Below are positions 1,746 through 5,485 of a stretch of 46,417 nt of DNA, piece by piece. Numbering within the stretch: position 1 is the stretch's first letter; each line of letters opens with the position of its first letter. Below the pieces are notes generated by a model. The model was given only the letters and a program-made list of their open reading frames with translations. It was not told the origin of the DNA and did no database searches. Position numbers and translations under genes: made by a program. The DNA is from Mizugakiibacter sp. (GTDB taxonomy: Bacteria; Pseudomonadota; Gammaproteobacteria; Xanthomonadales; Rhodanobacteraceae): contig QILI01000077.1 of NCBI GenBank assembly GCA_003233305.1, positions 1 through 46,417 on the forward strand, written 5' to 3'.

Positions 1746-1966
1746 TTTGCATCCGCTTCTGTAGCGTTCAAGCCTATTCCGCCCAACTCCCATGAGGACT
1801 CCCCAGATCGGATGGGGATGCCTTCGAAGTTCAAGTCACACCCGCTGGAAGCGTAAGTAGAGTCTACTAAGAAACTCTAACTCATTGATGTTATTGTAAT
1901 AATATGGTGTTTTTAGATATAATAGTGCATCAAAAGTTAGCCTACCCCTGGAAAACGCGTGCACCG

Positions 1967-2428
1967 ATGATTCGTTATCGCAGCAGCCAACAGCTTTCTC
2001 TGGCCGTTGTGACTGGCCCTTGCAAACCGCTCTGGATGGGAAGGATAGCCCGGTGCACCCCCTGGGACGAGCTGGCCGAGGGGCATTATCAAGATTTGGC
2101 CGTCAAGCAAGGGTGCCCCGCCAAGGATGACCACCGGGTCATCGGGGCGGTAATCATCAAGCACAAGCTGTGTTTGTCGGACCAAAAGACGGTGGCCACG
2201 ACCCAGGAGAATCCCTACCTGCCATACTTCGTGGGGTTGTCGGGTTATCAAAGGGATGCGCCGTTTGCCCCTTCGCTGTGGGTGGAGGTTCGCAAGCGCA
2301 TGGGGTCGGGCGTATTTGAAGTTTTTTATGGGGCGATCATCGCCGCCGTAGAAAAGGCGAAGGCGAAGGCGAAGCGCAAGCCCGCGCCCGGGCGTAGGCC
2401 TAAACCAGGCAAGGACGAGGTGCAGCAA
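1967..2428 (+). pseudogene. Decayed IS5-family transposase, N-terminal half only
   Basis: The reading frame gives MIRYRSSQQLSL, then a stretch unlike the family, then PWDELAEGHYQDLAVKQG, VIGAVIIKHKLCLSD, ENPYLPYFVGLSGYQ and APFAPSLWVEVRKRMG. These are the N-terminal landmarks of IS5/IS1182-like transposases. The region around 2000-2055 matches the family only in another frame (a DWPLQTALDG-like segment), so the copy carries compensating frameshifts. The DDE catalytic domain is missing: similarity stops near 2428, after a lysine-rich stretch, just before the thioesterase gene. An open frame runs from 1904 to 2533, but its ends are unrelated sequence. It is an inactive relic. Confidence 0.75.
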
Positions 2429-2451
2429 CCCACTGCAATAACATATCAGTA

Positions 2452-2946
2452 TCAGCGCTCTACAATTCCCGGATGGTCCTCACGTAACGGCTTCTCCATA
2501 CTCCTGGAAATCTCACTCAAACGCTCAGCATAGGCAGCCAGCTTGAGGTCATCCGGCTCGGTAGGCGTCCATTTCGGCACTTCGATAGGATGTTCTGCTT
2601 CGGCGTCAACGGCCACAAACACCATCACACAACTGGTGGTCAGACGGCTTTGCCCCTGCCTGAGATCCCTGGCCAGTACGTCCACAGCAAACTGCATGCT
2701 GCTGTGCCCGGTATGGATAAGCTTGGCCTGGACGCTGACCAGATCACCGATACGGATCGGCTGTAGAAACTGGATGCTGCTCACCGCAGCGGTCACACAA
2801 TAGGCACCGCTCCAAGCTACCGCAGCGGCATAACCGGTCTGGTCGATCCAGCGCATCACTGCACCACCATGAACCTTGCCACCGAAATTGACATCGCCCG
2901 GCTGAGCCATGAAACGAAAGCTTAGTTCGCGTTGCTGACCACGCAT
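2452..2946 (-). CDS. Acyl-CoA thioesterase, hot-dog fold (YciA/ACOT-like)
   Basis: This 164-residue protein carries the hot-dog motif GDVNFGGKVHGGAVMRWIDQTGYAAA, in which the residues after the HGG turn and the long helix form the CoA-ester site. A second conserved block, SSIQFLQPIRIGDLVSV, follows. The family hydrolyses acyl-CoA to free acid and CoA in the cytoplasm; chain-length preference cannot be read here. I chose the ATG at 2946 because a GGAG lies 9 bases upstream, while the ATG at 2961 has no ribosome binding site. The gene lies 28 bases after the RuBisCO-like gene on the same strand, so it is probably cotranscribed with it and prmC. Its 3' end abuts the IS5 relic. Confidence 0.85.
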   Translation of the reverse strand: MRGQQRELSFRFMAQPGDVNFGGKVHGGAVMRWIDQTGYAAAVAWSGAYCVTAAVSSIQFLQPIRIGDLVSVQAKLIHTGHSSMQFAVDVLARDLRQGQSRLTTSCVMVFVAVDAEAEHPIEVPKWTPTEPDDLKLAAYAERLSEISRSMEKPLREDHPGIVER

Positions 2947-2973
2947 GCACCCAATCTCCATATCAAAGCGGCA

Positions 2974-4572
2974 TTATGCCTCGCCCACGGCTCCGGGAGC
3001 GACCGGCTGGTCCCGTTGCCGATCAACAAGGCAATAAAAGCCAAACGGCTGGGCACTTTCGTTACGCAACTGGTGCACACGTTGTGGGGCAATGTAGGCA
3101 ACATCATGAGGCTCAAGCGGCTGCTGTTCTCCGTCCATTTGTACCCAGCCATGACCCCGCGCACCAATGAGCACATGGGTATGAGCGTGTCTTTCCAGAC
3201 TGGTGTGCCCCCCGGGGGCCAGCTCAAAGTAGCGCAGATCAAATTGGCAGGCCTCACCACTCTTGCCGATCAGCTCGACCCGCCGTACCCCGGCAAAATC
3301 CAACTCGTGGCTACTCTTGTAAGGACGATCCTCACGACCCTGCCAATGAAAACCATCCAATACCGCTAGTCGGGAGCGGATTGCCCCGGGTGCCACAGGC
3401 AGTTCGCAGGATGACGCAACCGCCAGCGGTGGGCGACACCGTTCCCCACAACGGACGCGAATCGCCTCGGCAAACTTCTGGGTCGACGCACAAAGGTCCT
3501 CCGAATGGCCATGTAAAGCCCCCCCGACCAGCAACACGGTATCAAGCCCATAGGTCTCGATCAGATCCGGAATGAGTTTAAAAGACATGCCACCCGCAGG
3601 TGCCGGCATAGCCGAACGCAGATTGCCCAGGGGTTCAACAAGGGCTTTTGCAACCGCCCGACAGGCTGATGCAGGGGGACCGAAACGCCCACCCGTGGCC
3701 GGGAACACCGAAATATCTGCTCCACTCAGCCGAAACAAGGTGCCCAGGAGTACGGCATGCGCAATGCCGTGTTCTTCCCCGTGGGTATAGGCGCCACTCA
3801 GGGCCGGATGGGCCATGCCGAGCAAACCGTAGCGATCCAGCAAAGTGCGGGACCGGTCCAAGCCCATCACCAGTGGGCAGACCAGCGCCCCAGGCAAGCC
3901 CCGCTCACGAATGTAACGGGCCCGCTGGTCGAGCTCCGCATCCGCCCCAGCTAGATGTGGCAGGTACAGGCACTGTCGCCCGGTCTGCTGATTGGCTTGC
4001 TCAACCGCCACGGCACAAGCATCGATGCGACGGCGGAAGGTATCCCAGTCGGCATCCACCAGATTCTGGTCATCCTTGACCAGATCGCCACCACCACGGG
4101 CAAATTCACCAGCCAGTCGAGCCAGAGCTTCAATAGGCATGCCACGCGGCTTGATTGCCGTCGCCAGCAGAGGTCGGTCATAAATTCCGAGCAGCCCCCG
4201 CAATCCTTGCACACCGAACCGCGGTCCATGAAAATTGCCGGTTACCGATTCAGGCAGATCTATTTCCAGCAAGCGCACCCCGGGGTACATCGAGATGTTG
4301 CCGTAGAGAAGATTGAATAATTGGCCAAGTTGCTCTGAAGCCAGCTCGGCGGTGTAGCCGATTTCAACGCAGAAGCTGTCTTGCCGGCTCACTTCAGCCT
4401 CTATGGAGCGAACCGTTCCCACTACCCGGCTGCGTACCCCGGCATCACGAATCAATGCCGCAGGCACCTCAACGGTTTGTTCATAAGCCATGGACCGGGC
4501 CAGAGTATCGATCTCGCTGGCCGTGGAAAGAACCCGATAACGGGCAAGAATCTTGTCGTCGGAAGCCATCAT
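2974..4572 (-). CDS. RuBisCO-like protein (form IV) fused to a C-terminal cupin
   Basis: Of 532 residues, about 1-385 are a RuBisCO large-chain fold and about 425-525 a cupin. RuBisCO landmarks are K141 in IKPRG (the catalytic KPK site), K166-D167-D168-Q169 (the KDDE metal site, with Gln for the last Glu), PAPAGGM at 323-329 and LLVGGALHGHSEDL. The last two replace loop 6 and the phosphate site in a way typical of non-carboxylating form IV proteins. The cupin shows LAPGGHTSLERHAHTH (H456, H462, H464, H466) and H500, probable metal ligands, and ends in a GFYCLVDRQRDQP-like tail. In Rhodospirillum rubrum, separate RuBisCO-like and cupin proteins convert 5-methylthioribulose-1-phosphate to 1-methylthioxylulose-5-phosphate, then to deoxyxylulose-5-phosphate and methanethiol. 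By inference this fusion performs both steps. Other form IV activities (for example on apionate derivatives) are possible. No mtnP or mtnA lies in the window. The start is ATGATG at 4572 or 4569. Confidence 0.85.
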   Translation of the reverse strand: MMASDDKILARYRVLSTASEIDTLARSMAYEQTVEVPAALIRDAGVRSRVVGTVRSIEAEVSRQDSFCVEIGYTAELASEQLGQLFNLLYGNISMYPGVRLLEIDLPESVTGNFHGPRFGVQGLRGLLGIYDRPLLATAIKPRGMPIEALARLAGEFARGGGDLVKDDQNLVDADWDTFRRRIDACAVAVEQANQQTGRQCLYLPHLAGADAELDQRARYIRERGLPGALVCPLVMGLDRSRTLLDRYGLLGMAHPALSGAYTHGEEHGIAHAVLLGTLFRLSGADISVFPATGGRFGPPASACRAVAKALVEPLGNLRSAMPAPAGGMSFKLIPDLIETYGLDTVLLVGGALHGHSEDLCASTQKFAEAIRVRCGERCRPPLAVASSCELPVAPGAIRSRLAVLDGFHWQGREDRPYKSSHELDFAGVRRVELIGKSGEACQFDLRYFELAPGGHTSLERHAHTHVLIGARGHGWVQMDGEQQPLEPHDVAYIAPQRVHQLRNESAQPFGFYCLVDRQRDQPVAPGAVGEA

Positions 4573-4630: not shown

Positions 4631-5485
4631 TCACTTTTCCGGTACGCGTCCCAGGCTGACCCGTTCCCGGTGCTCGATATCTAACTCGGTGGTGACTTCG
4701 CTCAAGCCCCTATCGTGCAGCAATTGCCGCACTGCGGCGCCCTGTTCAAAACCGTGCTCCAGCAATAACCATCCTCCAGGGTGCAGACACGCTGGCGCCG
4801 TGCTGACAATGTGGCGAATAGCATCCAGCCCGTCTGCGCCCGCCAATAGCGCCACCGAGGGCTCGTAACGTAAATCACCCTGCTGCAGGTGCGGATCTTC
4901 AAGCCGTAGATAAGGAGGATTGGAGACGATTAAATCGCAACTGGCATCACCCAAAGCCTCGCTCCAATCAGACTGCACAAAACCAACCCGCTGCAGACCC
5001 AGGTGCTGCGCATTGACCTGGGCAATCTGCAATGCCGCCAGACTACGATCTACCGCCAGAACATGCGCCTGCGGCCGCTCGTGAGCCAGGGCCAGCGCAA
5101 TAGCACCACTACCGGTGCCGAGGTCCACCACCTGCAGCGGACGTTCCGGCGGCATATGCTCCGGCGGCATATGCTGTAGTGCCAATTCCACCAGACGTTC
5201 GGTATCGGGGCGGGGAATCAACGTATCCGGGCTCACTTGCAACGTCAGCGACCAGAACTCGCGCTGGCCGAGCAGATAGGCCAGCGGCTCACCCTCAGCC
5301 CGGCGCCGTAGCAAATCAAAAAATCGCTGCTGCCGCCCCGGGGTAACCGTATCCCGGTCATGGGCGTACAACCAGCTACGCGGTCGCTGCAGCACCTCCC
5401 CTAACAGTACTTCGGCTTCCAAAGCGGCCGAATCCGTAGCCAGCATCTCACGCGCAGCCCGTAGCAGGGAACGTAGTTCACTCAT
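4631..5485 (-). CDS. prmC: Peptide chain release factor N5-glutamine methyltransferase
   Basis: PrmC (HemK) methylates the glutamine of the GGQ motif in release factors 1 and 2, using S-adenosylmethionine. The 284-residue protein has the helical N-terminal domain, the class I methyltransferase motif DLGTGSGAIALAL (121-133) and the catalytic NPPY at 189-192, followed by YLRLEDPHL. Length is normal for the family. The usual partner prfA is not adjacent; a divergent oxyR lies upstream. Downstream, on the same strand, come the RuBisCO-cupin gene (58-base gap) and a thioesterase. An in-frame duplication of HMPPE (105-114) sits just before the SAM-binding strand and is encoded by a perfect 15-base tandem repeat. 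Confidence 0.95.
   Translation of the reverse strand: MSELRSLLRAAREMLATDSAALEAEVLLGEVLQRPRSWLYAHDRDTVTPGRQQRFFDLLRRRAEGEPLAYLLGQREFWSLTLQVSPDTLIPRPDTERLVELALQHMPPEHMPPERPLQVVDLGTGSGAIALALAHERPQAHVLAVDRSLAALQIAQVNAQHLGLQRVGFVQSDWSEALGDASCDLIVSNPPYLRLEDPHLQQGDLRYEPSVALLAGADGLDAIRHIVSTAPACLHPGGWLLLEHGFEQGAAVRQLLHDRGLSEVTTELDIEHRERVSLGRVPEK
5146..5175. repeat. 15-base perfect tandem duplication inside prmC
   Basis: The 15-mer CCGGCGGCATATGCT occurs twice head to tail (5146-5160 and 5161-5175). It encodes HMPPE twice on the minus strand. The extra copy falls in the linker between the N-terminal helical domain and the methyltransferase domain, where an insertion should be tolerated. Confidence 0.9.

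Follow-up and report, generated by a model that had tools for sequence, protein, structure and literature searches.

The window analysed here, meaning the whole stretch of 46,417 nucleotides from contig QILI01000077.1 of Mizugakiibacter sp., carries on its reverse strand a gene in which a RuBisCO-like protein (RLP) domain is joined to a cupin domain. The gene, its parts and its 2 neighbours are as follows, in window coordinates.

2974..4572, reverse strand: RLP-cupin fusion gene, 532 amino acids, with an ATG start and no internal stop
3448..4557, reverse strand: RuBisCO-like domain, residues ~6-375, assigned to the DeepYkr type and predicted to be a 5-methylthioribulose-1-phosphate (MTRu-1P) 1,3-isomerase (3qfw match, Foldseek, tree, signature residues)
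3361..3447, reverse strand: linker, residues ~376-404, with disorder at ~383-392 according to AlphaFold pLDDT
3001..3360, reverse strand: cupin domain, residues ~405-524, predicted to be a 1-methylthioxylulose-5-phosphate (MTXu-5P) methylsulfurylase (PDB matches and alignment)
4066..4077, reverse strand: KDDQ motif, residues 166-169, corresponding to the RuBisCO K201/D203/E204 metal site with the third ligand changed from E to Q (signature alignment)
3175..3195, reverse strand: cupin metal motif E-R-H-x-H-x-H, residues 460-466, with E460, H462, H464 and H466 invariant
4631..5485, reverse strand: prmC, release factor methyltransferase, upstream neighbour at 58 bp from the fusion (TIGR03534, 298 bits)
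2452..2961, reverse strand: hotdog (YciA-like) thioesterase, downstream neighbour at 12 bp from the fusion (PF03061, E 6e-18)

The original prediction had read this open reading frame as an RLP followed by a cupin, and this was confirmed for exactly the interval 2974-4572. Pfam placed RuBisCO_large at residues 120-286 (E 1.5e-25) and Cupin_2 at residues 448-514 (E 1.2e-9). Both hits exceeded the curated cut-offs, and the predicted cupin was thus recovered by a profile search. An AlphaFold model built on a 27-sequence alignment (mean pLDDT 86.8) contained 2 well-folded domains, with a disordered stretch between them at residues 383-392, where the pLDDT was below 50. The linker was variable in both length and sequence among the homologues. 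The predicted domain limits, residues 1-385 and 425-525, were close to those obtained here, except that the cupin homology begins nearer residue 405.

The prmC-RLP gene order was also seen at L005/L062, and other Lysobacterales loci had thioesterases related to the YciA-like neighbour close to the RLP. An ORF with a transposase domain (window positions 1904-2533; PF05598 DUF772, E 6e-7) lies downstream of the fusion in a region of reduced G+C content and might indicate a mobile element nearby. No RNA regulators or tRNAs were found in the window.

In sequence searches against the PDB, the RLP half matched 3qfw, an RLP from R. palustris, best (E 6e-71, compared with 3e-48 for the Geobacillus MtnW), with about 36% identity and a long branch in the tree. 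The same entry was the top Foldseek match to the model of the fusion, with a TM-score of 0.93 over the target; the Foldseek matches listed covered only the RLP half, and the cupin assignment is sequence-based. In a maximum-likelihood tree that was built without the R. rubrum RLP sequence, the window RLP grouped with 3qfw, apart from MtnW and RuBisCO, with support values of 100/97. The catalytic K, K-D-D and H positions were retained as K141, K166, D168 and H255, and a GGR loop at residues 294-296 was common to the window RLP and 3qfw. The third metal ligand was H, Q or N across the clade of these 2 proteins (Q169 in the window protein, H in 3qfw), whereas it was E in MtnW, RuBisCO, and 2 other RLPs. 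The form IV identity proposed at the outset for this half therefore held, with 3qfw as the closest relative and an active-site signature like that of 3qfw, not those of MtnW or RuBisCO.

The R. palustris RLP1 has been identified as an MTRu-1P 1,3-isomerase by deletions and metabolites (PMC5893883). We take 3qfw to be RLP1 (RPA2169) rather than RLP2, because RLP2 has its own entry, 2qyg, and provided that this is correct, the window RLP domain is by its sequence a member of the DeepYkr type. NCBIfam contained no model naming either an MTRu-1P isomerase or a methylsulfurylase activity.

Two other assignments of the RLP half were considered and rejected. For a RuBisCO carboxylase, the E204 ligand and the loop-6 lysine are replaced by Q169 and R296, and the score was well below the equivalog cut-off. 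The second was MtnW, the DK-MTP-1P enolase of Bacillus and Geobacillus (2zvi, 2oek), which shares with the window protein the RuBisCO-like fold and a place in methionine salvage. However, MtnW forms a separate clade with an E ligand and a YGS loop in place of Q and GGR, and the window protein did not come near the MtnW cut-offs, with scores of 168 and 226 bits where 514 and 409 bits, respectively, are required.

The cupin domain matched 3ibm (E 1.5e-31), 3kgz (3e-19), and 3jzv, which is Rru_A2000 of R. rubrum (~1e-18), in the PDB, with the next cupin at 3e-8, a gap of 10 orders of magnitude to the methylsulfurylase-type matches. The entry 3ibm corresponds to Hhal_0468. An alignment of the fused, adjacent and PDB cupins of this type showed RYFE, E-x-H-x-H-x-H, HQ and GFxCxV(x)3RDxP to be invariant, including E460, H462, H464 and H466. 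At a guess, the conserved Cys of the cupin may have a role in catalysis. A structure search against viral proteins gave generic cupins only. The methylsulfurylase identity originally suggested for the cupin was supported, as the PDB matches and the alignment place the domain specifically in the Rru_A2000 type.

The genome to which the window belongs is 99% complete, and the fusion is its sole RuBisCO-family gene. It contains mtnA (414 bits) and a phosphorylase gene (C60:11987-12700) that scored 367 bits against a cut-off of 223 bits with the S-methyl-5'-thioinosine phosphorylase model and just below the cut-off with the MTAP model. The expectation of mtnP and mtnA in this genome was accordingly upheld in that mtnA and an MTA/MTI-type phosphorylase are present, but the phosphorylase is a methylthioinosine-type enzyme, so that a step catalysed by an MTA deaminase is implied. 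The ARD gene mtnD was not found in this genome, in agreement with the predicted absence of the oxygen-dependent branch as far as mtnD is concerned, and it was present in 4 of the 5 species of the same genus that were checked. Sister species such as G005, G009 and G011 contained RuBisCO and mtnD, while the window genome contained the fusion and lacked both.

Close linkage to mtnA was seen in other phyla. The gene was located close upstream of the fusion in 8 Acidobacteriota in all: in L070 mtnA, tsaD and the fusion followed one another at distances of a few bases, L060, L069 and L071 had only tsaD between mtnA and the fusion, and in L063-L066 mtnA was placed about 0.9-1.1 kb before tsaD. The actinobacterial relatives also had mtnA nearby, at times together with an MTA/MTI phosphorylase.

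We propose that the fusion is a bifunctional MTRu-1P 1,3-isomerase and MTXu-5P methylsulfurylase of oxygen-independent methionine salvage, with 1-deoxyxylulose-5-phosphate (DXP) and methanethiol as its products, and we put the probability of this homology-based reading at about 0.82. MTA would be converted to MTRu-1P through the phosphorylase and MtnA, and the RLP domain would turn MTRu-1P into MTXu-5P. Using a thiol, for instance glutathione, and a metal bound at its H-x-H-x-H motif, the cupin domain would then remove the methylthio group, giving DXP and methanethiol, the latter possibly first as a glutathione adduct. Joining the domains might, for example, keep the 2 activities at a constant ratio or raise the concentration of the intermediate locally. 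The 2 activities, the sequence in which they act and a benefit of the joined form are inferences.

RLPs are mechanistically diverse and MtnA-type enzymes can be promiscuous (PMC6302742), and on these grounds a different sugar phosphate might be the substrate, for example an apionate derivative or the 5-deoxyribulose-1-phosphate that arises in 5-deoxyadenosine salvage; the cupin would then catalyse a step that does not involve sulfur. We consider this very improbable, since both domains have their nearest relatives in the methylthio pathway and mtnA is found near the fusion in other genomes. An apionate-type activity, which the original prediction had named as an alternative, corresponds to OiaX (oxo-isoapionate-4-phosphate decarboxylase); this candidate was rejected because the OiaX model, which has a cut-off of 700 bits, gave a score of 81 bits.

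The RLP-cupin fusion was found intact and free of stops in at least 27 genomes, so that the search for the same architecture suggested at the outset returned 26 genomes in addition to that of the window, with proteins 43% to 59% identical to the window protein over its length. The hosts were Gammaproteobacteria (Lysobacterales, Immundisolibacterales, Thiotrichales) and Acidobacteriota. When P0001 was searched against the 398 genomes of the order, 7 intact fusions were obtained; in a scan covering 84,980 species, 167 relatives were detected, and 25 of the best 80 were fused without a stop. The total of 27 consists of these 25, 6 of which apparently repeat the search of the 398 genomes, plus the window genome and G435, and it is a lower bound because only the best 80 of the 167 relatives were covered. 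The stability of the architecture across 2 phyla supports the reading that RLP and cupin work in sequence.

In other genomes the cupin was encoded separately. It adjoined the RLP as a gene of its own in L087, L078, L105 and Terrarubrum, and was located elsewhere in the genome in 3 Elusimicrobia and 1 actinobacterium. On a plasmid of Terrarubrum flagellatum (L169), the genes for the RLP, the cupin and cysE lay next to one another, with an ABC transporter downstream of them. The RLP and cupin genes of L105 and L078 abut and share a reading frame, separated by a single stop and about 3 bp, which shows how the fusion could arise. A single error could also join genes arranged in this manner, and the window gene might in principle be an assembly or frame artefact of 2 adjacent genes. 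The chance of this is practically negligible, because the same joined frame was intact in 27 genomes from 2 phyla with divergent sequences and linkers; the stop or frameshift between the domains that had been raised as a concern was seen in none of them.

The RLP was also found without a partner. No methylsulfurylase-type cupin was detected in the genomes of 7 members of the Wenzhouxiangella group (g34), G186, 3 members of f8, or G059, all of which contained an RLP, and an RLP of this clade can therefore serve without the cupin. In L098, L099, L108, and the Wenzhouxiangella-group genomes G045, G070, G089 and G111, we noted a clade RLP with no matching cupin and found neither dxs nor dxr. A trpS-RLP neighbourhood was common to fused loci (L059, L061, L073, L083) and cupin-free loci, so that gain or loss of the cupin took place at this position.

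The cupin-free relatives at this same locus in Wenzhouxiangella indicate that some lineages can do without the cupin. They are compatible with an RLP that is a working isomerase and a fused cupin that has another role, be it regulatory, structural or as a lyase on a related methylthio-sugar, and cupins are functionally very diverse. However, the fused cupins retain every metal and signature residue of the Rru_A2000 type without variation, and where it is not fused, the same type of cupin adjoins these RLPs or shares a genome with them. Such another role for the cupin is in our view very improbable, and a methylsulfurylase acting on the product of the RLP domain is preferred. As for the origin of the fusion, a quick tree placed the fusions in one clade with later cupin losses, whereas a more careful tree had an unresolved base and forced at least 6 changes of the fusion label. 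It is possible, judging from these sequences, that one fusion was followed by several losses of the cupin.

We examined 26 fusion genomes, some of which are incomplete drafts, for dxs and dxr: 10 contained both genes, including the window genome, 11 contained dxr only, 4 contained neither and 1 contained dxs only. The genomes with dxr and no dxs were G071, G084, G163, and the acidobacterial G413, G415-G417, G420-G422 and G426, and in these 11 the fusion may supply the DXP. Neither gene was found in G055, G139, G144 and G414. The proposed link from S-adenosylmethionine salvage to isoprenoid precursors is not general, because 4 genomes with the fusion lack both genes. In the latter, DXP could feed vitamin synthesis. 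The dxs gene of G432, an Elusimicrobiota chromosome, was found in 2 neighbouring pieces (C1:1746208-1748047).

A survey from 2023 (PMC10663253) did not settle in how many bacteria DXP is made independently of Dxs. We hypothesize that Dxs may have been replaced by the fusion, which the pattern of dxs loss fits. In one acidobacterial family, all 10 genomes carried the fusion and lacked dxs. However, both dxs and the methylsulfurylase-type cupin were absent from 4 Acidobacteriota of the same order (G436-G439), which weakens the loss of dxs as proof of the function of the fusion in this phylum. That the bacteria with dxr and no dxs obtain DXP from the fused enzyme alone, so that their isoprenoid and vitamin precursors would come wholly from methionine salvage, is a tentative idea that we hold to be rather unlikely.

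The predicted pathway resembles the MTA-isoprenoid shunt of R. rubrum (RLP Rru_A1998 and cupin Rru_A2000) in having by homology the same 2 consecutive steps, with mtnA, for the step before them, present in the window genome. It differs in that the 2 steps are assigned to 1 protein, whereas R. rubrum uses 2 separate proteins, and in the MTI-type phosphorylase. RPA2169 of R. palustris, taken as 3qfw, is the best match to the RLP half in both sequence and structure and shares its active-site signature; its gene and that of the cupin RPA2170 are separate and its third metal ligand is H, in contrast to the fused gene and Q of the window protein. Genetic proof of the R. palustris pathway is available (PMC5893883). 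Methionine-salvage steps are likewise fused in the MtnBD and MtnAK proteins of Tetrahymena (PMC3698126, PMC6302742), but these are other enzymes, of the oxygen-dependent route and eukaryotic. No description of a fused RLP-cupin protein was found in the papers covered that name RLPs together with cupins, a set that does not contain the discovery paper of the pathway, and the fusion may have been mentioned earlier.

Both steps specific to the shunt, which are carried out by separate enzymes in well-studied bacteria, would thus reside in one protein. Through the predicted activities of the fusion, the sulfur-containing waste product of S-adenosylmethionine should become a precursor of vitamins and isoprenoids, and the fusion offers a single gene for testing whether methionine salvage can replace Dxs.
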